A stretch of 49,759 nucleotides of DNA from Streptomyces celluloflavus (GTDB taxonomy: Bacteria > Actinomycetota > Actinomycetes > Streptomycetales > Streptomycetaceae): positions 1-49,759 of the forward strand of contig JOEL01000049.1 in assembly GCA_000720995.1 (NCBI GenBank), given 5' to 3'. The first letter of the stretch is position 1; each line of letters starts with the position of its first letter. The translations under genes and the position numbers were made by a program. The notes under the pieces were generated by a model. The model was not told the DNA's origin, did not search any database, and saw only the letters and a list, made by a program, of their open reading frames with translations. Positions 10,016 through 30,849 of this stretch are shown here, piece by piece.

Positions 10016-10206
10016 GCGTGGATCCCGATGACGGCGGCCGGGCAGATGGCGGCCGCCTCGCGGACCGCGTCGTGCCGCTCGGCGGGCGGTTCGGCGTCGA
10101 GGAGGACGACCACGCCGTCCTCGTCGCGCTGGTCGAAGACCTCGGGCGCGATCAGTACGCACTGGCCGGCGCCGCAGCACGCGTCGGCGTCAAGAGTGAT
10201 CTTCAT
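10012..10206 (-). CDS. Small [3Fe-4S] ferredoxin paired with CYP105-type P450
   Basis: The 64-residue protein is the size and pattern of actinomycete P450 ferredoxins. Cys10, Cys16 and Cys55 are the expected cluster ligands, in the motif CCGAGQC followed by LIAPEVFDQ and a C-terminal ICPAAVI. The neighbouring Cys11 occupies a position often held by another residue in [3Fe-4S] types. It is likely cytosolic and transfers electrons from the reductase encoded next to the P450. A GGGAG box precedes ATG 10206, and the stop overlaps the reductase start. Confidence 0.92.
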   Translation of the reverse strand: MKITLDADACCGAGQCVLIAPEVFDQRDEDGVVVLLDAEPPAERHDAVREAAAICPAAVIGIHA

Positions 10207-10264
10207 GGCGGAAAGCTCCCGTCGGAGGTGAGGTGGAAAGGTAACCGGGGTACGGGTGAGCCGC

Positions 10265-10311
10265 CCGGCGTCACGAGGTGACGCCGGTGTGTGCCCATGT
10301 CACCAGGTGAC
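10265..10311. repeat. Two GTCAC-based dyads between P450 and ferredoxin genes
   Basis: A perfect 10-bp stem (10265-10274 with 10278-10287) with a 3-base centre is followed by GTCACC-A-GGTGAC at 10299-10311, which overlaps the P450 stop codon. Both dyads share the GTCAC/GTGAC core. They could attenuate or stabilise the P450-ferredoxin message, or bind a regulator. There is no U-tract. Confidence 0.45.
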
Positions 10312-11565
10312 GGGCAGCGCGTGACAGCCATAGATCGACATATCGGTACGGAACGGAATCTCCTCGACCGGTACGGCGGGCCGCATCGCGGGGAACCGGC
10401 GCAGCAACGTATCGATGACCACCTGGAGTTCGACACGGGCGAGCGCCTGGCCCAGGCACTGGTGGATGCCGTAGCCGAACGCGACATGGTGCTGGGCGTT
10501 GGGGCGGCCGGGGTCGAACCGGTCGGCGTCGGCGAAGACGCGGTCGTCGCGGTTGGCGGAGGCGACGGCCACCACGACGCCCTCACCGGCCCGGATGAGG
10601 TGCCCGTCGATCTCGATATCGGCGGTGGCGGCCCGGCGCGGTCCGTTGCGGATGATGCTGTGGAAGCGCAGCAACTCCTCGACGGCGCCCCGGATCAGGG
10701 CGGGGTCCCGGCGGAGCCGGTCGGCGGCCTCCGGGTCGCGCATCAGGGTGAGGGCGCTGAGGCCGATCATGTTGGCGGTGGTCTCGTGCCCGGCGATCAG
10801 CAGCAGCGCGGCGAAGGCGGTCACATCGTCGTGGGTGATCTCGCCGGTCCGCTGCTGTTCGGTGATCAGCCGGCCGAGGATGTCGTCGCCGGGCGCCGCC
10901 CCCTTGGCGGTGACCAACCGGTCCAGATAGTCGCGGAGTTCGCCGCGGGCCGCCGCCCGCTCGGCGTCGGGCACGGCGCGGGCGAGCAGGGTGCCGGTGA
11001 GCCGCTGGAAGGTCTCGTGGTCGTCGTAGGGGACGCCCAGCAGCAGGCTGATGACCAGCGACGGGACGGGCAGTGCGAGCGCCTCGACGAGGTCCACCGG
11101 CCCGTCCGTCCGCTCCCGGGTCCGCTCCATCGCGTCGCACAGGTCATCCGTGAGGCGCTGGATCCGCGGGCGCAGCGCCTCGACGCGCTTGACCATGAAC
11201 TCCCGGGTGACCATCCGGCGCAGCCGGGTGTGCTCGGGCGGGTCCCGGCGGATGAACCCCCGGTTGTCGGTGTTGCCGCCGCCGGTCATACCACTGAGCG
11301 GGTAGCCGGGGACGGTGGGGTCGGAGCTGAAGCGGGTGTCGCCGAGAATCGCCCGGATGTCGGCGTAGCGGGTGGCCAGCCAGGCCCAGCTCCCGTCCGC
11401 GAGGGAGACCTTGGAGATCGGCTCCGTGGTGCGCAGCACGCCGAACGCGGTGTGCGGGTCGCCCCGGTCGAGCAGGTCCGCGTGCGGGGGCGGACCTGCG
11501 GGGCAGCCGCTCGGGGGCCGGACGGGCAGCGGTGCCGCGGCGGTGGGACGGGTCATTTCGCTCAT
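10300..11565 (-). CDS. Cytochrome P450, CYP105-like
   Basis: The 421-residue monooxygenase shows all P450 hallmarks: the oxygen-binding I-helix AGHETT at about residues 257-262, EELLR (ExxR) in the K-helix, and the haem loop FGYGIHQCLGQ with Cys370 as haem thiolate. The C-terminus SIYGCHALPVTW is characteristic of the CYP105 family, which oxidises macrolides, xenobiotics, terpenoids and fatty acids. Start ATG 11565 is chosen because GAGGAG lies a few bases upstream; in-frame ATGs at 11604 and 11556 are less supported. Ferredoxin and reductase genes follow on the same strand, giving a complete electron chain. A TetR gene lies upstream and a TGTAA-N2-TTACA dyad lies in the promoter region. Confidence 0.93.
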   Translation of the reverse strand: MSEMTRPTAAAPLPVRPPSGCPAGPPPHADLLDRGDPHTAFGVLRTTEPISKVSLADGSWAWLATRYADIRAILGDTRFSSDPTVPGYPLSGMTGGGNTDNRGFIRRDPPEHTRLRRMVTREFMVKRVEALRPRIQRLTDDLCDAMERTRERTDGPVDLVEALALPVPSLVISLLLGVPYDDHETFQRLTGTLLARAVPDAERAAARGELRDYLDRLVTAKGAAPGDDILGRLITEQQRTGEITHDDVTAFAALLLIAGHETTANMIGLSALTLMRDPEAADRLRRDPALIRGAVEELLRFHSIIRNGPRRAATADIEIDGHLIRAGEGVVVAVASANRDDRVFADADRFDPGRPNAQHHVAFGYGIHQCLGQALARVELQVVIDTLLRRFPAMRPAVPVEEIPFRTDMSIYGCHALPVTW

Positions 11566-11627
11566 CACGCTCCTCGCGCGCACACCGGCAGGGGCGTGCG
11601 CCATGGGTCGGACGTTCGCCTAACGCT

Positions 11628-11639
11628 TGTAAACTTACA
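11628..11639. promoter_or_regulatory. Operator candidate TGTAA-N2-TTACA upstream of the P450 gene
   Basis: TGTAAacTTACA is an AT-rich perfect dyad in otherwise very GC-rich DNA, about 60 bp upstream of the P450 start. The adjacent TetR-family gene makes it the obvious candidate binding site. The role is inferred. Confidence 0.5.
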
Positions 11640-11765
11640 CATGTATCGACCACCTAAACGGGTCGGGGTACGGGAAATGACGTTGCTTCAGTGCGCCGGT
11701 GGGTGACGGCGGGGCAGGGAGCGGGCCGGAGCCGACGGCACCCGGGGCTCGGCGTCCGGGGCCCG

Positions 11766-12432
<667 letters not shown>

Positions 12433-12530
12433 TGCCCTCCGGTCCCTTCCCTGGCCTGGTCGCCGTGGTGCGTCACCAGGGTTTCACACCGGGGCGGCCG
12501 GGCATACGCGCGCACCGGCCGGGCCCGTGG

Positions 12531-13676
12531 TCATCTCCCCATCGTCAGCCCGTCCGCCGCGGCGCCCCGGCTGAGGACCGCCTTCTTGATCTTCTTGCGG
12601 ACGTCGGCGTGGCCGCGGGTCCTGGTGAGATCGACCACCCGCACCTTCGGCCGCTGCACGACGAGTTGCGGGAAGTACTCGGCCTCGGTGACCTGCCAGC
12701 GTTCGCCCTCCTCGTCGGGCGGGACGAACCGGAAGCGGGCGATGGTGCCCCAGTTGCCCTGCGGTTTCCGCATGGCGCCGGAGAGCTGGTCGCCCAGACC
12801 GTAGACGACCCAGGTGCCGTTGACCTTCTCGTACGGCTGCGGGGTGTGCGCATGGGCGCCGATGACCAGGTCGATATCGGGGCGGCCGTCGGTCTGTGAG
12901 GCGGTCAGCGCGTGGGCGAGCCTGATCTGCTGCTCGTTGGGGGCGGTCCGGTACTCGGTGCCCCAGTGCGGGCTGACCACCACGACATCGGCACCGGCCC
13001 GGCGGGCCGCCCGCGCGTCCGCGATGATCTTCTGCTCGTCGAGGAGGTTCACCGTCCACGGGGCGGCCGCCGGGCGCTGCGCGCCGCCGGTGCCATAGGT
13101 GTACGAGAGCTGGGCCACCCGCGCACCGTGGGTCCGCAGCAGCGCGGGGCGGGCGCCCTCGGCGGCGCTGCGGGCCGAGCCGGCGTGCCGCAGCCCGACC
13201 GTCTCCAGGACCTTCAGGGTGTGGCGTACGCCGGGGACGCCGCGGTCCAGGGCGTGTTCGGAGGCGGTGGCGCAGGAGTCGAAGCCGGTCGCCTTGAGGG
13301 CGGTGGCGAGCTGCGGCGGCGCCTGGGCGGTGAACGGTCCGGACAGCGGGCCGATCGGGGTCTCCAGCTGGCACAGTGCGAGATCCGCGGCGGAGATCAC
13401 CGGCCGCACGCCCGCCAGGATCGGCCGGTAGTCGTACTCGGCGTCCTGGTCCGGTACGTCGTCATGTGCCGTGCGGAGTACGGCGGGGTGCGACGCGATG
13501 ATGTCCCCGGAGGCGACCAGGGTGAACGGCCGCTGGTGGGCGACACGGGACACGGGGGCGCCCGCGTTGCCGCGCGGCCTGGGCGCCGGGGGCGGCGGGG
13601 CGAGGTGCGGGCCGCCGCAGGCCACGGCGAGTGCGGCGAGCACGGCGAGGGCCGCACAGCGGGGGTACGCGCTCAT
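12531..13676 (-). CDS. CapA-family lipoprotein (poly-gamma-glutamate synthesis type metallophosphatase fold)
   Basis: This 381-residue protein has an N-terminal lipoprotein signal (hydrophobic stretch ending AVAC, Cys about residue 20) followed by a Pro-rich linker. The CapA-type domain shows the calcineurin-like metal-site motifs SGDIIA, SEHALDRG, SPHWGTEY and GAHAHTPQPYE. CapA proteins are cell-surface factors associated with poly-gamma-glutamate or other wall-linked polymers; many Streptomyces copies stand alone, as here, without CapBC. The start was set at ATG 13676 to leave a compact signal peptide. ATG 13700 is a possible alternative, and neither has a clear ribosome site. It is divergent from the APH-type gene. 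Confidence 0.82.
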   Translation of the reverse strand: MSAYPRCAALAVLAALAVACGGPHLAPPPPAPRPRGNAGAPVSRVAHQRPFTLVASGDIIASHPAVLRTAHDDVPDQDAEYDYRPILAGVRPVISAADLALCQLETPIGPLSGPFTAQAPPQLATALKATGFDSCATASEHALDRGVPGVRHTLKVLETVGLRHAGSARSAAEGARPALLRTHGARVAQLSYTYGTGGAQRPAAAPWTVNLLDEQKIIADARAARRAGADVVVVSPHWGTEYRTAPNEQQIRLAHALTASQTDGRPDIDLVIGAHAHTPQPYEKVNGTWVVYGLGDQLSGAMRKPQGNWGTIARFRFVPPDEEGERWQVTEAEYFPQLVVQRPKVRVVDLTRTRGHADVRKKIKKAVLSRGAAADGLTMGR

Positions 13677-13873
13677 GCCCGAACACTTACCAGCAGTCAT
13701 ACGTATGAAGAGCGATCTCGCGGCGGTGTCCGGGACGATCCCCTCGTACGGCCCTGCGCGGGCCGGGGGTCCGGCCGCCGCGGCCCCGGCACATCGCCGC
13801 GCGCCCGGCCGTCCCCGTACCCGCCGCCGGGCCCGGCGCCGCAGCCCCGGCGGCCCGTCGCTACGCTGCCCCG

Positions 13874-14821
13874 ATGGCCCGCACCCCGCACGACGAAGAC
13901 CGCTTCCCCGCCCAACTGCCCGTGGTCGCACAGCTGGGGCGGTCCCCGTCCGGGCGGGCCTGGCTCGACCGGCTGCCGGGGATCGTCCGGGAGGTCGAGG
14001 AGCGGTGGGAGCTGCGGCTCGGCGCCCCGTTCCACGGCGGCAGTTGCTCCTGGGTGGCGCCGTGCGAACGGCCCGACGGCTCGCCCGCGGTGCTCAAGGT
14101 GACCTGGCCGCACCGCGAGGCCGAGGGGGAGGCACCCGGACTGCGCGCCTGGGACGGCGCGGGCGCCGTACGGCTGCACCGCTGGGACCGCGAGCGCGGC
14201 GCGCTGCTGATCGAACGGTGCACACCGGGCACCCCGCTCACCGGCCACCCGCTGCCGCCCGCCGAGCGGCTGGCGCTCGCCGCCGGTCTGCTGCGCGACC
14301 TGTGGGCCGCGCCCGCGCCGCCGGAGGGCGAGCTGGAGCGGGTGGATCTGGTGTGCGCCGAGTGGGCCGATGTGCTCCAGGAGCGGATGATCCGGCTGCG
14401 GCCCGGCTACGATCCGGGGCTGGTCGCGCTCGGCGCGGACCTGCTGCGCACCCTCCCGGCGACGGCCGCCCGCGAGGTCGTGGTGCACGGCGACTTCAAC
14501 CCCGGCAATGTGCTGGCGGCCGAGCGCCTGCCGTGGCTGGCGATCGACCCCAAACCGATGGCCGGCGACCCGGCGTACGACCCGTGGCCGCTGCTGATGC
14601 AGATCGACGACCCGTTCGCGCACCCGGACCCGCGGCCGGTGCTCCGCGACCGCTACGCGCTGGTCGCCGAGGTGCTGGACGAGGATCCGGCGCGGCTGCT
14701 GGCCTGGTCGGTGGCGCGGGGCGTGGAGAGCGCACTGTGGTACGCGGACACGGACGATCCCGAGGCCGGGGCAGGGGAGTTGGCGCGGGCGCGGGTGCTC
14801 GCGGAGCTGGCCGGATACTGA
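13874..14821 (+). CDS. Aminoglycoside phosphotransferase (APH(6)-like) family kinase
   Basis: The 315-residue protein carries the APH catalytic loop VVHGDFNPGN with Asp207 as catalytic base, and the metal-binding segment AIDPKPMAGDPAYD. The nucleotide-binding lysine is in PAVLKVTW. The overall layout resembles streptomycin 6-phosphotransferases, which detoxify streptomycin by ATP-dependent phosphorylation. Chromosomal Streptomyces homologues often act on unknown small molecules, so resistance should not be assumed. ATG 13874 fits the conserved N-terminus; no strong ribosome site is visible. No antibiotic cluster adjoins it. Confidence 0.82.
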   Translation: MARTPHDEDRFPAQLPVVAQLGRSPSGRAWLDRLPGIVREVEERWELRLGAPFHGGSCSWVAPCERPDGSPAVLKVTWPHREAEGEAPGLRAWDGAGAVRLHRWDRERGALLIERCTPGTPLTGHPLPPAERLALAAGLLRDLWAAPAPPEGELERVDLVCAEWADVLQERMIRLRPGYDPGLVALGADLLRTLPATAAREVVVHGDFNPGNVLAAERLPWLAIDPKPMAGDPAYDPWPLLMQIDDPFAHPDPRPVLRDRYALVAEVLDEDPARLLAWSVARGVESALWYADTDDPEAGAGELARARVLAELAGY

Positions 14822-14964
14822 CCGGCGGGGGTGGGAGCCGGGGCGGCTCGGCGGACCGCCCCGCCCCGCACCAGGAGCGTCCCGACGTGGTGAACGAGGT
14901 CCTCGCCCGGCTGTGGCAGGGCTGACCCGGGCCGCGCCCTGTATCGGACACCCACCCTCTTGAC

Positions 14965-15099
14965 ATCCGAGGTATCCGCCTGAAGGAGGCGCAACGGCCG
15001 CCAATTAGGCATCCCCCTCGCCCTGTTGGCGTGAGTTCATCCGATGTTTGTGGTGCCGGAGGTCTTCCGGAACCCCGGGGCTGCCTGCACTATGCGGGG
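14965..15099 (+). promoter_or_regulatory. Promoter module shared with the GH29 gene, upstream of the GH95-like operon
   Basis: The 310-bp gap before the GH95-like gene contains four blocks also found, in the same order and spacing to within a base or two, before the GH29 gene. They are ATCCGAGGT (14965-14973), ATCCGATGTTT (15039-15049), CCGGAGGTCTTCCGG (15056-15070) and CCTGCACTATGCGGGG (15084-15099). CACTAT in the last block, 17 bp after TTCCGG, is a plausible -10/-35 pair. The TCCGAGGT/TCCGATGT words look like repeated operator half-sites. Confidence 0.65.
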
Positions 15100-15131
15100 G
15101 GAGTTCAGGGACGAGACCCGGAGGCGCCGCC

Positions 15132-17450
15132 ATGACCGATCTCTCGCGAAGAGCTTTCACCGGTGCGGCGGTCGCCGGCACCGCCGGCGCCTGGGCCGCC
15201 GGATCCGGCGCCACCTGGGCCGCCACCGGCCGGGGCACCACCGCGGCCCCGCACCCGGACCCGTACGAATCCGCCGTCCGCGCCGCCGCCATGACGTGGC
15301 GCAGGCTGCCGGACGGCTGGCAGCAGGCGCCGTTCCTCGCCGACGGGCGGCTCGGCTGCCAGATCTACGCGGGCCCCACGCCCAACACCCTGAAGGTGAT
15401 GCTCAGCCATACCGAGGTCCAGGACCAGCGCGGCCAATGGCGGGCCGGGATCGGCTACTCGCGGCTGCCCATCGGGTACTTCACGCTCACCCTCGCCGGG
15501 ACCGTCACCGCCGTGGACTGGTCACTGGACCTGTGGGACGCGGAGCTGCGCGGCACCGTCACCACCACCCGCGGCAGTGTCCGCCTCGCCGCGCTGGTGC
15601 ACACCGCCCGTTCCGCGCTGCTGCTCTCGACGCGGCCGAGCGCGGGCGAGTCCGGCGCGGCCTGGTCGTTCACCTGGCTGACCGCGGCGACCACCCGCAC
15701 CTCCGGCAGACCGGCCGACTACACCCCCAACCCCGACCCCCGCACCGCCACCACGGACGCCACCCGGGTCGTCGAGCAGCCACTGCTGGCCGGCGGCGGC
15801 TGGAGCACCGCCTGGCGCGAGCGCCGGGTCGGCTCCGACCGGCTGCTCGCCGCCCATCTCGTCTACCGCTCCCCCGGCGACCCGGCCGCGACGACGCGGG
15901 AGGCCGTCCGGGCGGTCGCCGCGACCCTCGCCGCCGACCCGGACCGGCTGGTCGCCGAGCACCGCGCCTGGTGGCACGCCTACTACCGGCGCAGTCTGCT
16001 GTCGGTGCCGGACAAGCGGCTCCAGAGCTTCTACCTGATCCAGCTCTACAAGCTCGGCTCGGCCACCCGCGCCGACGGTCCCGCGCTGTCGGAGTGGGGT
16101 CCGTGGTTCCCGGAGACCGGCAACAACTGGACCGGGCTGTGGTGGAACCTCAACGTCCAGATCGCCTCCACCGGCTACCTCGGCACGAACCACCTCGAAC
16201 TCGACTCGGTGACCGCCGCGTTCCGCCGCTTCGAGGCGAACCTGCCGCTCTCCGTACCACCCGCCTACCGCGACGGGCAGAGCTACGCACTCGGCCATCC
16301 CTCCGACTGGCAGCTGCGGGCCGGGGAGTGGAACGTGGGCGTACCGGGCTCCGGCCGGATCTCCGACAACTTCGGCAATCTGACCTGGGGCCTGCACAAC
16401 GTCTGGCTGGCGTACCGCCACACCATGGACCGCGCGATCCTGCGCGATGTGCTCTTCCCCGTCCTCGCCAGGGCGCTGAACTTCTACGACCACTTCCTGC
16501 ACGAGGGCGGCGACGGCCGTCTGCACCTGCCCACCACCCGTTCCCCCGAGTACGCCGACGCCGCCGACTGCACCTACGACCTCTCCCTCATCCGCTGGGC
16601 GGCCCGCACCCTGCTCGACGCGGCGCGCACCCTGCGGATCGCGGACCCGCGCGCCGGGCGCCGGCGGGAGATCGCCACCCGCCTGGTCCCCTACGCACAG
16701 GATCCGGCCGACGGTGTGCTGATCGGCGCGGACGTCCCGCTCGCCGCCTCGCACCGCCACCACTCGCATCTGCTGTGGCTGTACCCGCTGCGCGAACGGG
16801 TCTGGGACCGGCCCGCCGACCGGGACCTGATGCGCCGGAGCTTCGCGCACTGGGCCGGGATGCGCGACAGCTGGCACGGCTACAGCTACGCCGTGTCCTC
16901 CTCGATGTCGTCGGTGATGGGCGCGCCGGAGCAGGCGCTGGACCTGCTGACGTATTTCACCGACCGGAACACCGCCGCGGACTGTCAGCTGACCGAGAAC
17001 ACGATGTACCGGGAGGGGAAGAACTTCGCGCTGGAGAGCCCGCTGACGGGGGTGCAGTCGATGCTCGACATGGTGCTCCAGGGGCACGGCGGGGTACTGA
17101 AGGTCTTTCCCTCGGTCTCCCGCCGGTGGCCCGATGTCTCCTTCGCGTCGCTGCGCACACAGGGCGCGTTCCTGGTGGACGCCGACCGGTCCGCGGGGCG
17201 GACCCGCTGGGTACGGGTGCACAGCGAGGCGGGTGCGCCGCTGGTGCTGGAGCACGGTATCGAGGGCGCGTGCACGGTGTCCGACGGCCGGGGCCGGCCG
17301 CTGCCGTGGCGCTCCGCCGGGCCGGGCCGGATCGCCGTCGGCCTGCCGCGCGGCGGTACGGCGTTCGTCGCGCCGCGGGGCACCGACCCGGATGCCGGTC
17401 CGCGCGAGGTGCCGGCCACGGGCCCGGCCCGGCCCTGGGGCCTGCCGTGA
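15132..17450 (+). CDS. Tat-exported GH95-like glycoside hydrolase (probable alpha-fucosidase type), copy A
   Basis: This 772-residue protein has a twin-arginine signal (LSRRAFTGAAVAG) and an Ala-rich cleavage region near residue 30. The core resembles GH95, inverting enzymes that remove alpha-1,2-fucose or alpha-galactose. It has an N-x-N pair in WWNLNVQ (Asn339, Asn341), SPEY with Glu473 as candidate general acid, and ASHRHHSHLLWLYPL. At the position where I expect QSHDG in GH95 it reads QGHGG, so a catalytic aspartate appears to be glycine. Activity may differ from classic GH95. ATG 15132 follows GGAGG by 7 bases. It is the first gene of a three-gene rightward operon and shares a promoter module with the GH29 fucosidase gene. 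Confidence 0.72.
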   Translation: MTDLSRRAFTGAAVAGTAGAWAAGSGATWAATGRGTTAAPHPDPYESAVRAAAMTWRRLPDGWQQAPFLADGRLGCQIYAGPTPNTLKVMLSHTEVQDQRGQWRAGIGYSRLPIGYFTLTLAGTVTAVDWSLDLWDAELRGTVTTTRGSVRLAALVHTARSALLLSTRPSAGESGAAWSFTWLTAATTRTSGRPADYTPNPDPRTATTDATRVVEQPLLAGGGWSTAWRERRVGSDRLLAAHLVYRSPGDPAATTREAVRAVAATLAADPDRLVAEHRAWWHAYYRRSLLSVPDKRLQSFYLIQLYKLGSATRADGPALSEWGPWFPETGNNWTGLWWNLNVQIASTGYLGTNHLELDSVTAAFRRFEANLPLSVPPAYRDGQSYALGHPSDWQLRAGEWNVGVPGSGRISDNFGNLTWGLHNVWLAYRHTMDRAILRDVLFPVLARALNFYDHFLHEGGDGRLHLPTTRSPEYADAADCTYDLSLIRWAARTLLDAARTLRIADPRAGRRREIATRLVPYAQDPADGVLIGADVPLAASHRHHSHLLWLYPLRERVWDRPADRDLMRRSFAHWAGMRDSWHGYSYAVSSSMSSVMGAPEQALDLLTYFTDRNTAADCQLTENTMYREGKNFALESPLTGVQSMLDMVLQGHGGVLKVFPSVSRRWPDVSFASLRTQGAFLVDADRSAGRTRWVRVHSEAGAPLVLEHGIEGACTVSDGRGRPLPWRSAGPGRIAVGLPRGGTAFVAPRGTDPDAGPREVPATGPARPWGLP

Positions 17451-17544
17451 CCCCGCCCCGGCCGCCCCTCCCGTGCACCTGCTGCCGCCGTCTCGCCTCC
17501 GCCGCTCCTGCCTCCCCCGTCCCCCGCGCCGATGGAGAGTTCCG

Positions 17545-19884
17545 ATGACCGGCTCCGCCTCCCCCGCTCCGTCCCCGTCCCGGCGGAGCGTCCTCGGCGC
17601 CGCCGCGCTGGCCGCCGGTGCGGCGGGTACCGCCGGACTCGTCGCGGCCGCGCCCGACGCGGCCGCCGCACCCCCGGCCCACTCGGCGGACGCCGACCCC
17701 TGGGTGACCGTCCTCGCCGACGCGGACCTGGTGTGGCAGCGGCTGCCGAAGACCTGGTACGAGGGCCCCTTCCTCGGCAACGCCCTCCTCGGGTCGGGGA
17801 TCTACGCGGAACCGGACGCCAACGCCATCCGTTTCACCGTCCAGCACAGCGAAGTCCAGGACCACCGGCTGGAGTTCGGCTCCCTCTTCGGTCTCGCCCG
17901 GCTACCGGTCGGCCATTTCACCCTCGAACCGGCCGGCACGATCACCGGCGTCGACTGGCGGCTGCGGCTGCGCGACGCCGAGCTGACCGGCACCCTGACC
18001 ACCGACCGGGGCACCCTGGAGCTGCGCGCCCATGTCCACAACTCCCGTTCCGTGCTGGCGGTCGAGGTCCGGCCGAGCGCGGGTGAGCGCGCCTTCCGCT
18101 GGGTCTTCCATCCGGCCGAGGCGATCAGCCCCCGCGCCGCCTTCAAACCGCTGCCCGCGGGGTACACCGCCAATCCGCCGGCGCAGGTCGCCGACCACGG
18201 CGGGGTGCGGGCCGCGGTCCAGCCGCTGCTGGCGGGCGGGCAGCATGTGACGGCCTGGCGCGAGCGGACGGACCGGGGCGGTGCCCGCACGCTGTACGCG
18301 GCCGTCGCGCATTCGCACCCCGCCACCACCGCCCTCGGCCGCGCCCTGCGCTCCGTACGCACGGTGGCCGCGCTGCCGTACGGGGCGGTGGCCCCCGGTC
18401 ACCGCGCCTGGTGGCACGCCTACTACCGGCGCGGTTTCCTGTCCTTCCCGGACGCCAGGCTCCAGCGCTTCTACTGGATCCAGCTCTACAAGGTGGCCGC
18501 CGCGGCCCGCGCCGACGCACCGGTCATGGCGACCTGCGGCCCCTGGCTGGAGCCGACGCCGTGGCCCGCGACCTGGTGGAACCTCAACGTGCAGCTGGAG
18601 TACTGGCTGATCCACGGCGCCAACCATCTCGAACTCGACGCGGTGACCCGGGCGCTCGGCGAGTTCCGGGACGGGCTGTCGGACCAGTTGGACGCCCCGT
18701 ACCGCAAGGACTCGGCGGGCATTGCGCGCACCACCGACACCCGGCTGCGCAACGGCGGTGACGCGGCGAACGGCGGCTACGCGGTCGGCATACCGGGCCA
18801 GGACCCGCCGACACCGGAGGTCGGCAACCTCACCTGGGCGCTGCACAACGTCTGGCTGACCTACCGTCACACCATGGACCGGCGGGTGCTGCGCGAGGTC
18901 CTCTTCCCGCTGCTGCGCCGGGCCGTCGCCTACTATCTGCACTTCCTGGAGCCCGGCCCCGACGGCAGGCTGCATCTGCCCGCGACCTTCTCCCCCGAGT
19001 ACGGCGTGAACGCCCCCGACTGCAACTACGACCTGATGCTGCTGCGCTGGGGCTGTGCCACCCTGCTGGACGCGGCCGACACCCTGGGCGTGCGCGACCC
19101 GTCGGCCGGCCGCTGGCGCGAGGTGCTGGCCAGGCTGGCACCGTACCCGGTGGACGGCAACGGCTTCATGATCGGCGCCGGGGTCCCGTTCGCCAAGTCC
19201 CACCGGCACTACTCACATCTCCTCGCGGTCTATCCGCTGTACGAGGTGAACTGGGAGCAGCCCGCCCAACGGGACCTGATCGAGCGGTCGTTGCGCCACT
19301 GGGTGGGCTTCGAGGGCGCCTTGCAGGGCTACACCTTCACCGGCGCGGCCTCCATCGCGGCGCAGATGGGCCGGGGCGAGGAGGCGCTGGGGTACCTGGG
19401 CGAGCTGCTGACGCGCTTCATCCGGCCGAACACGATGTACCAGGAGTCGGGGCCGGTCATCGAGACACCGCTGTCCGCGGCGCAGTCGCTGCACGACATG
19501 GTGTGCCAGAGCTGGGGCGGGGTGATCCGGGTGTTCCCGGCGCTGCCGCGGGCGTGGCGGTCGGTGACGGTGCACGACTTCCGCACCCAGGGCGCGTTCC
19601 TGCTCGGCGCCGCCCGCGAGGACGGCCGCACCCGCTGGGTCCGGCTGCGCAGCGAGGCGGGCGCGCCCTGCGTCCTGCGGCATTCGCTGCCGGCCGGCCC
19701 GGTCGAGGTGCGGGACGGACGGGGCCGCCCGTTGCCGTACGAGGAGGTGGCGGCCGGCACGGTCCGGATCGCGCTGGACAAGGGCGGTACGGCGGTGGTC
19801 ACCGCGCGCGGCGACCGGCCGCCGATGCGGATCGCGCCGGTCGCGCCGAACGAACCGGCGCCGCGCTGGGGGCTGCCCGCGTGA
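17545..19884 (+). CDS. Tat-exported GH95-like glycoside hydrolase, copy B
   Basis: The 779-residue protein is a clear paralogue of the upstream gene. Shared landmarks include the HRAWWHAYYRR segment, WWNLNVQ (Asn346, Asn348), the NLTWxLHNVWLxYRHTMD stretch, SPEY (Glu485) and SHRHYSHLLAVYPLY. It has its own twin-arginine signal (PSRRSVLGAAALAAG). As in copy A, the expected Asp in the QSHDG region is replaced, here as QSWGG. It starts 94 bp after copy A with GGAG spaced 7 bases from ATG 17545, so cotranscription is likely. Divergence between the copies suggests an old duplication with different substrates or linkages. Confidence 0.72.
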   Translation: MTGSASPAPSPSRRSVLGAAALAAGAAGTAGLVAAAPDAAAAPPAHSADADPWVTVLADADLVWQRLPKTWYEGPFLGNALLGSGIYAEPDANAIRFTVQHSEVQDHRLEFGSLFGLARLPVGHFTLEPAGTITGVDWRLRLRDAELTGTLTTDRGTLELRAHVHNSRSVLAVEVRPSAGERAFRWVFHPAEAISPRAAFKPLPAGYTANPPAQVADHGGVRAAVQPLLAGGQHVTAWRERTDRGGARTLYAAVAHSHPATTALGRALRSVRTVAALPYGAVAPGHRAWWHAYYRRGFLSFPDARLQRFYWIQLYKVAAAARADAPVMATCGPWLEPTPWPATWWNLNVQLEYWLIHGANHLELDAVTRALGEFRDGLSDQLDAPYRKDSAGIARTTDTRLRNGGDAANGGYAVGIPGQDPPTPEVGNLTWALHNVWLTYRHTMDRRVLREVLFPLLRRAVAYYLHFLEPGPDGRLHLPATFSPEYGVNAPDCNYDLMLLRWGCATLLDAADTLGVRDPSAGRWREVLARLAPYPVDGNGFMIGAGVPFAKSHRHYSHLLAVYPLYEVNWEQPAQRDLIERSLRHWVGFEGALQGYTFTGAASIAAQMGRGEEALGYLGELLTRFIRPNTMYQESGPVIETPLSAAQSLHDMVCQSWGGVIRVFPALPRAWRSVTVHDFRTQGAFLLGAAREDGRTRWVRLRSEAGAPCVLRHSLPAGPVEVRDGRGRPLPYEEVAAGTVRIALDKGGTAVVTARGDRPPMRIAPVAPNEPAPRWGLPA

Positions 19885-19928
19885 GCGGCGCCGCCGGGCC
19901 CGGTACGCCCGCCACGAAGGGATCCCCC

Positions 19929-22052
19929 ATGGCCGATCTGCTGCACTTCCGGGCCGCCGGTACGAGTCTGGTGCTGGATCTGTCCGGTACCGGTCTGCCG
20001 CGCGTCCCGCACTGGGGCGCGGACCTCGGCGAGCTGTCGCCCGGCCGGCTCGCCGCACTCGTCGCCGCCGAGGCCGCGCCGGCCGTCGCCGGTGACCTGG
20101 ACGAGCCGTTCGCGCTGAGCGTGCTGCCGCAGGCGTCGGCGGGCTGGCCCGGCACCCCGGGGCTGAGCGGCCACCGCGACAGTTGCGCGGCCGCGCCCGC
20201 GTTCACGGTGCGCGGCCGTTCCGTGGTGGCCGGGCAGCGTCGGCTGCGGGTCGAGGCGGCGGACGCGGACGTCGGACTCACGCTCACGCTGGAGATCGAA
20301 CTCACCGATGCCGGGCTGGTGCGGCTGCGCGCCGAGGTCACCAACACCGGGCCCGGTCCGTACCACCTCGGCGAGCTGACGCCGGCGCTGCCGGTCCCGC
20401 CGCAGGCCACCGAGATCCTCGACCTGACCGGCCGGCATCTGCGCGAACGCGCCCCGCAGCGGCACGCGTTCACCCTCGGCACCCATCTGCGGGAGAACCG
20501 GCGCGGGCGCACCGGCAGTGACGCGACGCTGCTGCAGATCGCCGGTGAGCCGGGCTTCGGCTTCCGGTCCGGCGAGGTGTGGGGGCTGCATGTGGCGTGG
20601 AGCGGCAACCACCGCTCGCTCGCCGAACGCACCCCGGCGGGCCATGCCGTACTGGCCGGCGGCGAACTCCTGCTGCCCGGCGAGATCCGGCTCGCCCCCG
20701 GGGACTCGTACACCTCGCCTTGGCTCCACGGCTCCTACGGGCGGCACGGCCTGGACGAGCTGTCCGGCCGCTTCCACCGCCACCTGCGGGCCCGCGCGCG
20801 GCACCCGGTCTCCCCGCGCCCGGTCACCCTCAACACCTGGGAGGCCGTCTACTTCGACCAGGACCCGGCGACGCTGGAGCGGCTGGCGCGGGTGGCGGCC
20901 GAGGCGGGCGCGGAGCGGTTCGTACTGGACGACGGGTGGTTCCGGGGGCGGCGGGACGACCGGGCCGGGCTCGGCGACTGGTATATGGACGAGCGGGTGT
21001 GGCCGGCCGGGCTGTCGCCGCTGATCGAGACCGTGCACGGGCTGGGGATGCGGTTCGGCCTGTGGGTGGAGCCGGAGATGATCAGCCCGGACTCCGGGCT
21101 GGCCCGTGCGCACCCCGACTGGATCCTGGCCGCCACCCCCGCCAGGACGCCGCCCGCCGCCCGCCATCAGCAGGTCCTCGATCTGGCCCGCCCGGACGCG
21201 TACAGGTACGTCCTCGGCCGCCTGGACGCCCTGCTGCGCGCGGACCGTATCGACTACCTCAAGTGGGACCACAACCGCGATCTGGTGGACGCCCCGGCGC
21301 ACCGTCAGACCGCGGCCGTCTACCGGCTGATGGACGCGCTGCGCGCCCGGCACCCGCACCTGGAGATCGAGTCCTGCTCCTCGGGCGGCGGCCGGGTGGA
21401 CCTCGGGATACTGGAGCGCACCGACCGGGTGTGGACCAGCGACTGCATCGACGCGCTGGAGCGCCAGCGGATCCAGCGCTGGACGGGGCTGCTGCTGCCG
21501 CCCGAACTGCTCGGCGCGCACGTCGGGGCGCCGCTCTCCCATACGACGGGACGCACTCACAGCCTCGACTTCCGCGCGGGCACGGCGCTGTTCGGGCACT
21601 TCGGGATCGAGTGGGACCTGACGGCCGCGAGCGCGGCGGAGCGGGCGCGGCTGGCCGAGTGGGTGGCGCTGTACCGCGCGCTGCGGCCGCTGCTGCACAC
21701 CGGGACGGTGGTCCGCGCCGACCACCCCGATCCGGCGCTGTGGGTACACGGCGTGGTGGCCGCCGACGGCGCGCGGGCGGTGTTCGCCCTCGTGCAGACC
21801 GCGACGGGCGTGCACTCCCCGGCGGGCCGGGTCCGGTTGCCGGGTCTCCCGCCCGAGGACGAGTACCGCGTACTGCCGCTCCCGCCGGGCGACCGCCCCG
21901 AGGGGCCGTTCACCGCGCCGCCGCCCTGGTGGGAGCGGGGGGTGACGCTCTCCGGCCGGGTACTGGCCGAGGCGGGGGTACGGGCGCCGACGCTCTTTCC
22001 GGAGCGGCTGGTCCTGCTGGAGGCGGTGCGGGTGGCGGACGGTCCGCGGTGA
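19929..22052 (+). CDS. GH36 family alpha-galactosidase
   Basis: This 707-residue protein has the GH36 layout: an N-terminal beta-sandwich (about 1-300), a TIM barrel (about 300-620) and a C-terminal beta domain. Asp447 in YLKWDHNRD is the expected nucleophile and Asp505 in WTSDCIDALERQR the acid/base. FVLDDGWF and GLWVEPEMI are further barrel signatures. GH36 enzymes are retaining and remove terminal alpha-galactose from oligosaccharides or glycans. No signal peptide is visible, so it probably acts in the cytoplasm on imported sugars. It starts 44 bp after GH95-like copy B behind AAGGGA, as the third gene of that operon. Confidence 0.9.
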   Translation: MADLLHFRAAGTSLVLDLSGTGLPRVPHWGADLGELSPGRLAALVAAEAAPAVAGDLDEPFALSVLPQASAGWPGTPGLSGHRDSCAAAPAFTVRGRSVVAGQRRLRVEAADADVGLTLTLEIELTDAGLVRLRAEVTNTGPGPYHLGELTPALPVPPQATEILDLTGRHLRERAPQRHAFTLGTHLRENRRGRTGSDATLLQIAGEPGFGFRSGEVWGLHVAWSGNHRSLAERTPAGHAVLAGGELLLPGEIRLAPGDSYTSPWLHGSYGRHGLDELSGRFHRHLRARARHPVSPRPVTLNTWEAVYFDQDPATLERLARVAAEAGAERFVLDDGWFRGRRDDRAGLGDWYMDERVWPAGLSPLIETVHGLGMRFGLWVEPEMISPDSGLARAHPDWILAATPARTPPAARHQQVLDLARPDAYRYVLGRLDALLRADRIDYLKWDHNRDLVDAPAHRQTAAVYRLMDALRARHPHLEIESCSSGGGRVDLGILERTDRVWTSDCIDALERQRIQRWTGLLLPPELLGAHVGAPLSHTTGRTHSLDFRAGTALFGHFGIEWDLTAASAAERARLAEWVALYRALRPLLHTGTVVRADHPDPALWVHGVVAADGARAVFALVQTATGVHSPAGRVRLPGLPPEDEYRVLPLPPGDRPEGPFTAPPPWWERGVTLSGRVLAEAGVRAPTLFPERLVLLEAVRVADGPR

Positions 22053-22145
22053 GCCGGGCGCTGCGTCCGTGACCGTCGACGCGGGGTGCCGCCGGGCCGG
22101 TCGGCTTCCGGATGCGGGCGTACGGGTGACGCGGCGCGCGCCGGG

Positions 22146-22177
22146 CCGCCGCCGGCCGTGGTGCGGTCCGGCGGCGG
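22146..22177. terminator. Hairpin between the GH36 and acyl-CoA synthetase genes
   Basis: A perfect 10-bp GC stem (22146-22155 with 22168-22177) with a 12-base loop lies between two convergent genes. It can serve both strands. There is no U-run. Confidence 0.65.
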
Positions 22178-22183
22178 GGTGGC

Positions 22184-23731
22184 TCAGATCGCGCGGTCGC
22201 GGCCGGCCCAGTACGGGTCCCGCAGCCGCCGTTTGAAGAGCTTGCCGGACTCGTCGCGCGGCAGCCGTTCCTCGAAGACCACGGCCCTGGGCACCTTGTG
22301 TCCGGCGAGGCGCGCCGCGACATGGGCGCGTACCTCCTCGGCGCCGAGGTGTACGCCCGGTTCGGTCTGGATGTGTGCGGCGAGCACCTCGCCGTACTCC
22401 TCGTCGGGGATGCCGAAGACCGCCGCGTCCCGTACGCCGTCGAGGGCGAGCAGCGCGCCCTCGATCTCCGCCGGATAGATGTTGACGCCGCCGGAGATCA
22501 CCATGTCGTTGCGGCGGTCGCTGAGGTAGAGGTAGCCGTCCGCGTCGAGATGGCCGATATCGCCGAGGGTGACGTATCCGGGCAGGCCCGGTGTCTCCAT
22601 CGCGGTGCGTGCGGCGGGGTTGCCGAGATAGGTGAACCGCGGCCAGTTGTCATCGGGCCGGAGGTAGACCTCGCCGGTCTCCCCGGCCGGCAGGACCCGC
22701 CCGCCGGGGCCGAGGACCGCTACCGCGCAGGTCCCTTCGGCCCGTCCGACGGTGCCCGGGTGGGCGAGCCAGGCCGCGCTGTCGCACCAGGTCACCGCGC
22801 CGGTCTCGCTGCCGCCGTAGTACTCCCGGACGATCGGTCCCAGCCAGTCGATCATGGCTTGTTTGATATGCGGCGGACAGGGCGCGGCGGCGTGCACGAC
22901 CGAGGTGAGCGAGGACAGGTCGTAGCGCTCGCGCACCTCCCCGGGCAGCCGCAGCAGCCGGACGAACATCGTGGGCACGACCTGGGTCTGCTCGATGCGG
23001 TGGCGTTCGATCAGCCGCAGGAACTCCTCGGCGTCGAAGCGCGGCATCAGCGTGATGTCCAGTCCGGCGGCGAGCGCGAGGGCGGCGTGCCCGCTGGGCG
23101 CGGCGTGGTAGAGCGGTGCGGGGATGAGCGTCCGCCCGCCGGGGGCGATGGCGAAGTGCTCCAGGAACGACCGCACCGTTTCGGTCAGTTGCTCGGAGGC
23201 GACCGGTGCGCGCAGAACTCCCTTGGGGCGTCCGGTCGTTCCGGAGCTGTAGATGACGGTGGACGGCCGTTCACCGGCCGCCGAGGTCAGCGGCGGGTAC
23301 CCGGCCAGCCAGCGGTCCAGGAGGGGATGCGCCCCGGTGGCGGGCGGTGCGGCGATCCCGCAGGCGGCGGCGACCCCGGCGGGGACGGGCGCCTCGATGA
23401 CCCGTACGCCGTCGGGGAGTGCGGCCATCACCGCGGCCAGCAGGTCGGTGTGCGCGAAGACGACCGTGCTGCCGCTGTCGGTGAGCACATGGCGTAACTC
23501 GTCTTGCCGGAAATGCCAGTTGACGGGCACCGCCGCGGCGCCGAGGAGGGCGGCCGCGGCGGTGATCTCCAGATGGGCGGGCTCGTTGCGCAGTACGAGG
23601 GCGATCCGGTCGCCCGGCCCGACGCCCAGGTCCCGCAGACCGGTGGCGATCCGCGCGGCGCGGTCGAGGAATTCGGGATAGCCGCGCGCGTGCCCGGCCG
23701 AGCGGATGGCGGGTGGTCGGACGGTGTCCAT
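22184..23731 (-). CDS. AMP-binding acyl-CoA synthetase/ligase
   Basis: The 515-residue protein is an ANL-superfamily adenylating enzyme. It has the P-loop-like YSSGTTGRPKGV, the motif YYGGSETGAVT, the ATP-contacting YLSDRRNDMVISGG, and the C-terminal catalytic lysine in DESGKLFKRRLR. Members activate a carboxylic acid as acyl-AMP and then form the CoA thioester; chain length and type cannot be read. ATG 23731 is preceded by GGGGAGG at about 6 bases. It sits on the opposite strand between the glycosidase units, with no obvious functional link to them, and is convergent with GH36. Confidence 0.87.
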   Translation of the reverse strand: MDTVRPPAIRSAGHARGYPEFLDRAARIATGLRDLGVGPGDRIALVLRNEPAHLEITAAAALLGAAAVPVNWHFRQDELRHVLTDSGSTVVFAHTDLLAAVMAALPDGVRVIEAPVPAGVAAACGIAAPPATGAHPLLDRWLAGYPPLTSAAGERPSTVIYSSGTTGRPKGVLRAPVASEQLTETVRSFLEHFAIAPGGRTLIPAPLYHAAPSGHAALALAAGLDITLMPRFDAEEFLRLIERHRIEQTQVVPTMFVRLLRLPGEVRERYDLSSLTSVVHAAAPCPPHIKQAMIDWLGPIVREYYGGSETGAVTWCDSAAWLAHPGTVGRAEGTCAVAVLGPGGRVLPAGETGEVYLRPDDNWPRFTYLGNPAARTAMETPGLPGYVTLGDIGHLDADGYLYLSDRRNDMVISGGVNIYPAEIEGALLALDGVRDAAVFGIPDEEYGEVLAAHIQTEPGVHLGAEEVRAHVAARLAGHKVPRAVVFEERLPRDESGKLFKRRLRDPYWAGRDRAI

Positions 23732-23878
23732 GGTGCCTCCCCTGGGGTACGGCCGCGCCCATTGAACAGGTATCCGGGCCCCCTTTGAAGAGCGCCGCGG
23801 CGGCACCGGCACGGACCGGACACCCGCCGCGCCCCGGCCGGGCGCGCTTCTCGGCCACCCGCCCCGCCCTCCCCTGAG

Positions 23879-24015
23879 ATCCGAGGTCTGACCACCTCAA
23901 CTCCCCCGACTCCCCCAACTTCGGCCTCCGTTACGGAAGATACGCGGCAGGTGCTCCGATGTTTATCGCGTCCGAGGTCTTCCGGTACGGGCGGGTGCGC
24001 CTGCACCATGCGGGG
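23879..24015 (+). promoter_or_regulatory. Promoter module shared with the GH95-like operon, upstream of GH29
   Basis: The 330-bp gap between the acyl-CoA synthetase start and the GH29 start holds the second copy of the four-block module. The blocks are ATCCGAGGT (23879-23887), CTCCGATGTTT (23954-23964), TCCGAGGTCTTCCGG (23971-23985) and CCTGCACCATGCGGGG (24000-24015). Block spacings match the other copy to within a base or two, while the sequence between blocks has diverged. A common regulator for both fucosidase-type loci is the simplest reading. Confidence 0.65.
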
Positions 24016-24061
24016 TGCACGGGAGGCACGGACGTGACCGACGGACCGAAGGAGCACGCGC

Positions 24062-25900
24062 ATGCTGCGATGGCACAGCCGCTCGAGACCACCCCAGCTG
24101 CTGGGAGTGCTGGGACTGCTCAGCGCCCTGCTGCTGACCACCGGCGGGCCCGCGGCCGCGGCGAAGCCCGCGCCGCGGCCCGCCACGGGGCCGGGCACCA
24201 ACCACGCGACCGACGATCCCTTCACCGCCGACCGCACATCCTGGTGGCGGCAGGACCGCTTCGGGATGTTCATCCACTTCGGCGCGTACTCGAACCTGGA
24301 GGGCGAGTACACCCGGCCCGACGGCACGGTCTGCCGCGACGCCGAGTGGATCAAGCGCGAATGCAAGATCCCGAACGATGCCTACGAGAAGCAGGCCGCC
24401 ACCTTCAACCCGGCCGATTTCGATGCCCAGGCGATCGTCCGGGCCGCCAAGGACGCCGGCCAGCGCTATATCGTCATCACCTCCAAGCACCACGACGGCT
24501 ACGCGATGTGGCCGACGAAGCAGAACTCCTGGAATCTGCGTGACCACTCCGCCTTCGATCCGCACCGCGACATCCTCGCCGAGCTGAAGCGGGCCGCCGA
24601 CGCCGCCGGGATCAAACTCGGCTTCTACTACTCGATCTGGGACTGGCACGACCCGGACTTCGCCGACCCGGCGACCTTCCCGCGCTACAAGAAGCGGATG
24701 TACGCCCAGCTCAAGGAGCTGGTGGACAACTACGACCCGGCCCTGCTCTGGTTCGACGGCGAATGGGACGCGGTCGATCCCGTCAACACCTGGTCCCGCA
24801 AGGACGGCGCCGAACTCCAGACGTATCTGCACGGTCTGAACCCGGAGCTGATCGTCAACAACCGCGTCGGCAAACGCGGTGTGGTCGACGGCGACTTCGG
24901 CACCCCGGAGCAGGAGATTCCCGCGGCGCCGGTCGACGGGCAGCTGTGGGAGAGCTGCATGACGCTCAACGACCACTGGGGGTTCGCCCGCTACGACACC
25001 CACTGGAAGTCTCCGGCGACCATCGTCCGCAACCTCCTGGACGTCGCGAGCCGCGGCGGCAACTACCTGCTGAACGTCGGACCGGACAAGCGCGGCCGCG
25101 TGCCGCAGCCGTCCGTGGACCGGCTGCGCGAGGCCGGCCGGTGGCTGCGCGCGCACGGCCAGGGCGACGCGGTGTACGGGGCCGGGTACACCGGGCTGGT
25201 CGCGACCCCCTCCTGGGGCGCGGTCGCCCGGCGCGGCAACGACCTGTACGCGTCCGTGACCGCCTGGCCCGCGGCCGGCCGGCCGCTGCACCTGACGGCC
25301 AGGGAAGCCTTCACGATCACCTCGGCCCGGGTACTGGGCAGCGGCCAACGGGTGACGGTCACACCGGCCGGCGACGGCTTCGACCTCACCCCGTCCGGCG
25401 CGGCCACCGGCCCCGTCGCGAGCGTCATCCGGCTCACCATCAAGCCCCCGGCGGCGGCGCCACCCGGCACCGGGCGGGGGCTGACGGCACGGAGCTGGGC
25501 CAACGACACGTTCACCGGCCCGCCCGCGGTGACCACCGTCGATCCGACCGTGAACAAGTCCTACCGCTTCGACGGCTCGCCCGACCCGTCGATCCCCGCC
25601 GAACACTTCAGCACCCGCTGGACCGGCAGCATCCAGCCGCGCTTCAGCGAGACGTACACCCTCACGACCGTCTCGGACGACACCGTCCGGCTCTGGATCG
25701 ACGGCAGGCTGGTGATCGACAGCGCCACCCCGCACGGCCCGCAGACCGACAAGGGGACCGTCACCCTGACGGCCGGGCACCGGCACGACATCCGGATCGA
25801 CTACACCCAGCAGACCGGCGAGGCGTATATGAAGCTGTTCTGGTCGAGCCCGAGCCAGTCCCAGCAGATCGTGCCGCGGCGTCAGCTGTACGCCGGCTGA
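24062..25900 (+). CDS. Secreted GH29 alpha-L-fucosidase with C-terminal PA14 domain
   Basis: This 612-residue protein has a signal peptide (about residues 1-33, ending AAAA). The GH29 barrel contains FGMFIHFGAYS, ITSKHHDGYAMW and LLWFDGEWD, in which Asp232 is the expected retaining nucleophile. SRGGNYLLNVGPDKRG marks the end of the barrel. A beta domain follows, and a PA14 domain covers about residues 475-608 (SYRFDGSPDPSIPAEHFSTR to LFWSSPS), a module that often binds glycans. The enzyme removes alpha-1,3/1,4/1,6-fucose outside the cell. ATG 24062 follows AAGGAG. The upstream region repeats the promoter module of the GH95-like operon, so the two are probably co-regulated. Confidence 0.92.
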   Translation: MLRWHSRSRPPQLLGVLGLLSALLLTTGGPAAAAKPAPRPATGPGTNHATDDPFTADRTSWWRQDRFGMFIHFGAYSNLEGEYTRPDGTVCRDAEWIKRECKIPNDAYEKQAATFNPADFDAQAIVRAAKDAGQRYIVITSKHHDGYAMWPTKQNSWNLRDHSAFDPHRDILAELKRAADAAGIKLGFYYSIWDWHDPDFADPATFPRYKKRMYAQLKELVDNYDPALLWFDGEWDAVDPVNTWSRKDGAELQTYLHGLNPELIVNNRVGKRGVVDGDFGTPEQEIPAAPVDGQLWESCMTLNDHWGFARYDTHWKSPATIVRNLLDVASRGGNYLLNVGPDKRGRVPQPSVDRLREAGRWLRAHGQGDAVYGAGYTGLVATPSWGAVARRGNDLYASVTAWPAAGRPLHLTAREAFTITSARVLGSGQRVTVTPAGDGFDLTPSGAATGPVASVIRLTIKPPAAAPPGTGRGLTARSWANDTFTGPPAVTTVDPTVNKSYRFDGSPDPSIPAEHFSTRWTGSIQPRFSETYTLTTVSDDTVRLWIDGRLVIDSATPHGPQTDKGTVTLTAGHRHDIRIDYTQQTGEAYMKLFWSSPSQSQQIVPRRQLYAG

Positions 25901-29661: not shown

Positions 29662-30849
29662 ATGGACAGCACGCGCACGCCCGCCGCAGGTGAGAACATT
29701 CAGGTACTCCGTAAGGCGAGGGGACTCGGGCAGACAAAGGTGGCCCGCGCTGCGGGCATCTCCGTCTCTCTCCTCCGCAAGATCGAGAGTGGCGAGAGGG
29801 CGGCCACGCCACCCAACGTGGCGTCCATCGCCAAGGCCCTTCGCGTCAGTACTGCGAGGATCTACGGGCAGCCCTTCCTGGGCCCGTCCGAGCAGAGTGA
29901 CCTTCTTGAGGACGTGCGAAACGCTGTCCGGCGTCACACCCTCCCCAAGGAAGATGTGCCACCGCTCGACGAATTGCGAGAAGACCTCCGCAAGGCTGCC
30001 GAACTGAGGTCCAACACAAATTACCTCGAACTGCTCAGGATGCTTCCCGAGCTTCTGGGACGGGTGACCGCCACAGCCATGACAGCCGGCGGCGATGCCG
30101 TCGCTTGGGGCGATGTGGCTGACGTATACGGATGCGCCTACGCCGTCGCTCATCGGCTGGTTCAGCCAGACCTGGCAGAAATGATCGTGTCCCGCCAGCA
30201 ATGGGCTGCCCGACAGACATGGAATCCGGTGGCAGAGGCGGCTACCGCCTGGAACGAGGCCGGAACGTACCAATCCGCAGGTCAATATGACGATGGGTTG
30301 GCAATTATCGACCGGGCCATCGTTCAGTTCGAACGCGTGATGGCTGACGAGATGATCTCCGTCGTCGCACTGGGTTCACTCCATCTTCGTGGAGTGGTGC
30401 TTGCTTCCAGGTACAAGGACAAGGCGGCCACGGAAGCGCATTCACAAAAGGCGAATGCGCTCGCCGGACGGATTCCCCGTGGGGACGTCCTCGCCCACAA
30501 CCTTACGTTCGGATCGGGGAACACCGCCCTGTACGATCTCGCCGCGCTCGTGGAGCTGGACAAACCTGATAAGGCTTCCCGAATGGCTCAGCCCCTGATC
30601 AAGACTCACCCGTCCGGGCTCCGCCCTTCGAGACTGGGCCGGCTCTATATCGACACAGCGCGTGCCCGCATGGCACTCAAGGACTACGCCGGAGCCGAGG
30701 AAGCACTCAAAGCGGCCTTCGCGGTCGCTCCTCAGATGGCGGAGGTACACCCCATGAGCCGGGAAGTTCTTCGAGTTCTTTTCATCCTTCACCAGCGAAG
30801 CAGGCCGGACCTGACGGACATGGCGAAGAAGGCCGGACTGGCTGCCTGA
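29662..30849 (+). CDS. XRE-family regulator with TPR-like C-terminal domain
   Basis: The 395-residue protein has an XRE HTH at about residues 12-65 (VARAAGISVSLLRKIESGER). A long alpha-helical region follows with tetratricopeptide-like pairs, for example AWNEAGTYQSAGQYDDGLAI and ARMALKDYAGAEEALKAAF. This architecture is widespread in Streptomyces regulators that sense a peptide or partner protein through the TPR part. Its partner is plausibly the divergent two-repeat protein. Base composition is visibly less GC-biased than in surrounding genes, with many A/T-ending codons such as GAA and CCA. A strong intrinsic terminator follows at 30909-30942. No consensus ribosome site precedes ATG 29662. 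Confidence 0.87.
   Translation: MDSTRTPAAGENIQVLRKARGLGQTKVARAAGISVSLLRKIESGERAATPPNVASIAKALRVSTARIYGQPFLGPSEQSDLLEDVRNAVRRHTLPKEDVPPLDELREDLRKAAELRSNTNYLELLRMLPELLGRVTATAMTAGGDAVAWGDVADVYGCAYAVAHRLVQPDLAEMIVSRQQWAARQTWNPVAEAATAWNEAGTYQSAGQYDDGLAIIDRAIVQFERVMADEMISVVALGSLHLRGVVLASRYKDKAATEAHSQKANALAGRIPRGDVLAHNLTFGSGNTALYDLAALVELDKPDKASRMAQPLIKTHPSGLRPSRLGRLYIDTARARMALKDYAGAEEALKAAFAVAPQMAEVHPMSREVLRVLFILHQRSRPDLTDMAKKAGLAA

Follow-up and report, generated by a model that had tools for sequence, protein, structure and literature searches.

A promoter module conserved before dispersed fucosidase-type genes of Streptomyces marks a candidate fucose-harvesting regulon

Regulators of the AraC/RhaS and MalT types work at activator-dependent sigma-70 promoters of class II that also carry distal sites, FucR of Escherichia coli regulates fucose utilisation, and DasR-type control relies on a trans-acting regulator with dispersed operators. 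FucR of Campylobacter jejuni is likewise reported to regulate fucose utilisation (PMC12566272), DasR governs a sugar regulon in Streptomyces (PMC4918961) and FUR1 of Trichoderma reesei exerts fucose-responsive control over carbohydrate-active enzymes (PMC12370193). Here we describe a promoter module that stands twice, some 9 kb apart, in a 49,759-nucleotide stretch of Streptomyces celluloflavus (assembly GCA_000720995.1, contig JOEL01000049.1, positions 1 to 49,759; hereafter the window), once upstream of a predicted operon of GH95-like genes and once upstream of a GH29 alpha-L-fucosidase gene, and that recurs elsewhere in this genome and genus.

The four blocks that the initial annotation had described in both promoters were found there in the same order, all on the forward strand. 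In the GH95-like promoter, distal site 1 (ATCCGAGGT, 14965-14973) carries a TCCGAGG 74 bp 5' of the core and is followed by site 2 (TCCGATGTTT, 15040-15049), recovered by both a genome word search and the core model introduced below, by site 3 (CGGAGGTCTTCCGG, 15057-15070), which overlaps the presumed -35 box TTCCGG (15065-15070), and by the fourth block (CCTGCACTATGCGGGG, 15084-15099), with a presumed -10 box CACTAT (15088-15093) 17 nt past TTCCGG and a leader block GTTCAG (15103-15108). The GH29 promoter repeats this plan: site 1 (ATCCGAGGT, 23879-23887) has its TCCGAGG 75 bp 5' of the core, site 2 (TCCGATGTTT, 23955-23964) was recovered in the same two ways, site 3 (TCCGAGGTCTTCCGG, 23971-23985) overlaps TTCCGG at 23980-23985, and the fourth block (CCTGCACCATGCGGGG, 24000-24015) includes a presumed -10 CACCAT (24004-24009), here 18 nt past TTCCGG. 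Matching start-to-start distances differ by at most 1 bp between the promoters, bearing out the claimed near-equal spacing, and a TCCGAKGT-type copy does lie over the presumed -35 box in both. The further claim that TCCGAKGT occurs three times per promoter holds exactly for the GH29 promoter only, the third copy in the GH95-like promoter reading CCGGAGGT. Local alignment gave the two promoters a score of 60; no dinucleotide-shuffled pair out of 2000 scored above 30, and no comparison with another window segment, out of 1000 on both strands, above 36. Across the 8.68-Mb genome, TCCGATGTTT occurs at three places, two of which are the window promoters, whilst the third falls within an open frame that by eye looks like methylmalonyl-CoA epimerase; the combined pattern TCCGATGTTT-N9-GAGGTCTTCCGG, with up to three mismatches, is confined to the two window promoters. 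The fourth block is weak by itself (CCTGCACNATGCGGGG with up to two mismatches has 74 genomic places, compared with 54 for a reversed control), and its exact form is found at the two window places only. The blocks are thus not spread at random through the genome.

A core model (R1), based on sequence only, was built over 65 positions from ten promoters. Of 14 starting matches, three (L007, L014 and L017) were excluded, the remaining blocks not being visible beside them, and a fourth (L011) was left out of the ten-row alignment (A3) as a near copy. R1 found three matches in the S. celluloflavus genome at E ≤ 1.5e-6, the next lying at 0.012. The third strong match, absent from the training promoters, is on another contig (C3, stretch L068) and combines the core with the distal site, a CAGTAT -10 box and the TTCAG leader block; after it come a gene for an unclassified protein of 597 residues, a second GH29 gene (PF01120, E 4.7e-99) and a GDSL esterase gene. 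Because this predicted operon has a GH29 gene of its own, one or more GH29 or GH95-like genes lie behind every one of the three strong genomic modules, which supports the coordination of fucose-releasing enzymes that the initial annotation had proposed. One module type therefore stands before several, partly non-adjacent, operons of one genome, as expected of a regulon.

Related genomes give the same picture. Named genomes scanned by pattern, without regard to gene content, gave 22 loci, 19 of them in Streptomyces, and all 19 lie directly 5' of a GH29 gene (8), of a GH95-like b gene (8) or, in three cases, of the unclassified gene with GH95-like a behind it (the unclassified gene being broken in one). 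Carriers of the module include S. lydicus and S. nigrescens. The other three (L101 of Planctomycetota, L107 of Polyangium, and L111) were set aside as chance, having no fucosidase match and no -10 box at 16-18 nt. With R1, 392 genomes of the genus yielded 23 matches in 21 genomes at E ≤ 1e-4, before GH29 genes (10), GH95-like genes (9) and the unclassified gene (3) or joined to a GH95-like remnant (1); the two scans overlap in genomes (L096 and L114, for instance, share one S. rimosus contig), and their counts are not independent. When the threshold was relaxed to E ≤ 1e-3, 246 genomes gave 23 matches, of which eight, with E from 1.6e-4 to 1.0e-3, appeared to be chance, with no module context by eye. 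The genus scans used stricter filters, at which weak matches are lost; two weaker modules (L088 and L089) also stand before GH95-like genes. The blocks are conserved, then, before orthologous fucosidase genes of related Streptomyces: the module is patchy across the genus but, where strong, it keeps its geometry and is tied to the fucosidase gene set.

Two variant loci were seen besides. In L163 (1-3047) the module is fused to the middle of a GH95-like frame within a fragmented assembly, through deletion or assembly error, and on the S. clavuligerus plasmid pSCL4 (L166:8530-8870) a GH29 gene follows a variant of the module whose -35 box is itself TTCCGATG. A search of plasmids for GH95-like genes returned just two Bacteroidales records.

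Thirty-five distinct promoters were compared in detail (a second deduplication cut-off had yielded 36). The -35 box of the module is of TTCCGG type rather than TTGACA and is overlapped by site 3, and a CANYAT hexamer follows it in all 35, at 17 nt in 31, at 18 nt in three and at 16 nt in one. A -10-like box at 16-18 nt in every promoter would also suit an alternative sigma factor that read the TTCCGG and GCANNATGC boxes directly. Such a factor gives no role to sites 1 and 2, and the likeness of CANYAT to an ordinary Streptomyces -10 counts against it; we regard it as improbable. Site 1, as TCCGAGG, lies upstream in 26 of the 35 promoters, as opposed to 4 of 1519 control windows. Its 27 copies comprise 22 at -63 to -65, single ones at -74, -75, -86 and -97, and an extra one at -89, this last in Streptomyces sabulosicollis (L090:1260-1300), where the distal site is doubled (-89 and -65). 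The steps of about 11 bp suggest that site 1 may keep to one face of the helix, on few separate cases and with the -89 copy as a misfit.

The leaders differ by gene type. TTCAG follows the -10 box in all 20 promoters of GH95-like and unclassified genes and in none of the 15 GH29 promoters, whilst 10 of the 15 GH29 leaders contain NTGACC, a start-region word found in 193 of 1535 control windows, with the true start further downstream. In the window this word is GTGACC (24034-24039, forward); it resembles the GH95-like start region, is out of the GH29 frame and is a possible relic start codon. NTGACC in GH29 leaders might thus be a remnant of cassette copying.

When GH29 promoters were compared with GH95-like promoters without gaps, identity was 93% at site 2, 84% at site 3 and 62% in the -10 region, falling to 50% in the stretch between sites 2 and 3 and 45% between site 3 and the -10 box. 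Where site 1 usually lies it was 44%, in the DNA from there to site 2 it was 36%, and both the leader and the region further upstream gave 31%. The loci had been picked by sites 2 and 3, so the identity and fixed spacing of these two are partly by construction; the -10 box and site 1 were not in the pattern. Promoter likeness of this kind could stem from copying alone, with no special regulation, and the frequency of NTGACC in the GH29 leaders makes copying of the cassette likely. Against this stand the fall in identity from the sites to the DNA outside the core and the persistence of the -10 box and the distal site, and we consider copying alone very improbable as the whole explanation. Selection on the sites is likely whatever their origin, because the sites, the -10 box and the distal site were kept while their surroundings diverged. 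A tentative and more elaborate view would combine the two: an undescribed fucose-responsive regulon whose whole cassette, start region included, had spread by copying to fucosidase genes of unrelated kinds (GH29, GH95-like and the family without a database match), with the distal site held at helical steps and a relic start left in the GH29 leaders.

On balance we lean towards the module being an activator-dependent, class II-like promoter cassette of a small fucosidase regulon. A regulator would bind the TCCGAKGT-type sites, with site 2 beside the promoter, site 3 over the poor -35 box and site 1 far upstream as a distal helper at preferred distances; in response to a signal, probably fucose or a fucosylated oligosaccharide judging from the gene set, it would recruit RNA polymerase to the CANYAT -10 box of a housekeeping-type promoter that needs an activator. 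Dispersed hydrolases would thereby be switched on, namely the GH29 enzymes, GH95-like a and b, a GH36 enzyme, the unclassified twin-arginine translocation (Tat)-type protein and the GDSL esterase. From these data we infer a single trans-acting binding protein, an inducer, activation rather than repression, and the extents of the operons; an activator is favoured because the -35 box is not TTGACA.

The GH29 orthologues of the genus revealed a second arrangement of the same word. At E ≤ 1e-80 there were 20 loci in 18 of 246 genomes, two of which (L138 and L140) lie at contig ends and were excluded from the upstream comparison. TCCGATG, on either strand and within 320 bp upstream, occurs at 17 of the remaining 18 loci, against 3 of 207 control segments. 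The module is present at five of the 18; 12 of the 13 module-less loci still have TCCGATG, in a different layout, and TTGACA or TTGACC stands at promoter-like distance at 11 of these 13. TCCGATGT lies right behind TTGACA in four module-less promoters, and 159 genomes contain the exact TTGACATCCGATGTWTC at two places, each before GH29. TCCGATG thus accompanies GH29 in promoters of two layouts, and activation and repression therefore both fit. Within the same regulon a repressor would sit on the TCCGAKGT sites and block the promoter until released by a ligand. The juxtaposition of TTGACA and TCCGATGT argues for this, several of these promoters have an upstream inverted site and a second site 30-31 bp further down, a usual repressor arrangement, and CATCCGATG in this layout forms a dyad. 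In the GH95-like-b lineage the repressor could be an adjoining TetR protein, usually a repressor type, whose gene stands beside most modules of that kind. The module itself fits a repressor less well, its -35 box being poor and overlapped by site 3, and the TetR in question was not found in the window, in L068 or with the other module types compared. We hold repression to be possible, on the doubtful side.

In the search for regulator candidates, a home-made GC-bias script called genes across the window, L068, eleven stretches around modules (of which L121 and L122 carry weaker ones) and the surroundings of eleven other GH29 genes, in the last case for genes starting at 4000-16000, and Pfam was run on selected proteins; the script misses genes of unusual composition, as it did an XRE gene, and uncalled frames were listed too. 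The window has two helix-turn-helix (HTH) genes, one encoding a TetR protein (11812-12432, reverse strand) and one an XRE-TPR protein (29662-30849, forward strand), and both are poor candidates because their relatives appear in one (L115) and none, respectively, of 46 other loci. The earlier statement that the window has no such regulator gene does not carry over to every species: elsewhere a different TetR gene adjoins most GH95-like-b modules. Its representative (L118:9208-9804) lies directly 5' of the module in the same direction, and relatives with at least 79% identity occur at 7 of the 8 named GH95-like-b loci and at L117-L120 (the relatives being those of L090, L092, L094, L099, L104, L106, L110, L117, L119 and L120); four relatives, two of them at named loci, are partial, and some loci come from the same genomes. 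No such TetR was found in the window, L068 or the compared GH29 and unclassified-gene loci, the remaining genome not having been searched for it. It is the best candidate regulator for the GH95-like-b lineage, and it may instead serve an adjoining divergent gene that by eye is oxygenase-like.

An IclR-looking gene is present at 4 of the 11 other GH29 loci (L143-L146), within what by eye resembles a purine-breakdown cluster. A LysR gene (L114 and L096) was dismissed as a recurring regulator, both loci being one genome. In the window a TPR protein (31101-32186, reverse strand) shows weak MalT-like TPR similarity; it is kept near GH29 in the window and in L109 and L112-L115, that is in all five module-bearing GH29 stretches compared, and was rejected as the regulator for lack of an HTH match.

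Several of these observations weigh against an activator-dependent cassette. Site 1 is missing from 9 of the 35 modules and the additional L090 copy at -89 is out of step; in relatives, TTGACA stands directly before TCCGATGT in four cases, as might suit a repressor site; the TetR gene recurs beside most GH95-like-b modules; and across 47 compared sources no DNA-binding gene was common to all three module types, the genome at large not having been searched. The module promoters are moreover related by descent, so that the counts are not of independent cases, the DNA inside the core but outside the sites is 45-50% identical, above the 31-36% outside the core, and the control windows are mostly coding DNA. 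The recurring TetR gene, together with the rate of NTGACC in the controls, slightly lowered our confidence in both the activator and the copied cassette and slightly raised that in a repressor.

Of the genes behind the window modules, GH95-like gene a (15132-17450, forward) matches PF22124 at E 1.4e-17, has a Tat-type N-terminus by eye and bears a weak resemblance to solved GH95 proteins (best E 2.2e-10), and GH95-like gene b (17545-19884, forward) matches PF22124 at E 1.2e-23 (a longer frame, 17134-19884, was scanned). Their catalytic-domain matches are partial (64 and 84 bits, cutoff 27), and the GH95 C-terminal domain is below the cutoff in gene a and above it in gene b; both are GH95-like by these partial matches, and GH95 alpha-L-fucosidase activity is putative. 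A melibiase-type GH36 gene follows (19929-22052, forward; PF02065, E 1.8e-114, scanned as the longer frame 19503-22052) and is predicted from its position to belong to the GH95-like operon, operon extents throughout being predictions from gene order alone. Downstream of the second module, the gene at 24062-25900 (forward) encodes a GH29 alpha-L-fucosidase with a PA14 domain, assigned to its family by PF01120 (292 bits, above the cutoff) and by its best solved-enzyme match (E 3.6e-68). An AMP-binding ligase gene (22184-23731, reverse) diverges from it, as also at 7 of the 8 named GH29 loci. A gene of the aminoglycoside/hydroxyurea phosphotransferase type (PF04655, 13874-14821) lies directly 5' of the GH95-like operon. 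A scan of the window against Rfam at gathering scores detected no RNA elements.

The unclassified gene behind the third module (contig C3:301862-303655 of the S. celluloflavus genome, G000; L068:8863-10656) encodes a protein with a Tat-type N-terminus by eye. Pfam at E ≤ 5, NCBIfam at 0.001 and the solved proteins at E ≤ 1 offered no match to it, and a fold predicted from a two-row alignment had a mean predicted local distance difference test (pLDDT) score of 38. Relatives at L095:383-2167 and L098:1517-3307, both on the reverse strand, adjoin GH29 or GH95-like genes, and the family is possibly a new glycosidase family. At L093 (2437-2741, reverse) the unclassified gene between module and GH95-like a appears broken, and GH95-like a is open throughout.

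Among the open-access matches listed, as excerpted, there was no account of the module or of a Streptomyces fucosidase regulator, the site words fitted no described Streptomyces sugar-regulator operator, and the excerpt of PMC4494728 contained nothing relevant to the module. A set of co-regulated sugar-harvesting genes under a shared promoter of this kind looks to be undescribed. It supplies a concrete candidate regulon through which soil Streptomyces would harvest fucose. The module, being long and specific, could serve as DNA bait for the regulator, and an unclassified family of secreted proteins gains a guilt-by-association lead from its proximity to fucosidases.

Set beside the known systems, fungal FUR1 provides an analogy only. 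FucR systems coordinate fucose-related genes, as is proposed here, but their targets are fucose utilisation genes, whereas the module set consists mainly of glycosidases in scattered operons with no such regulator recognised beside them. DasR-type regulons resemble the proposed one in having a trans-acting regulator with dispersed operators, and differ from it in operator sequence and gene set. From class II activator-dependent sigma-70 promoters of the AraC/RhaS and MalT types the module is set apart by the TCCGAKGT word and its 16-bp step, which were not matched to any described family, but the architecture is alike: direct-repeat sites beside and over a poor -35 box, a further upstream site at preferred distances and an ordinary-looking -10 box.

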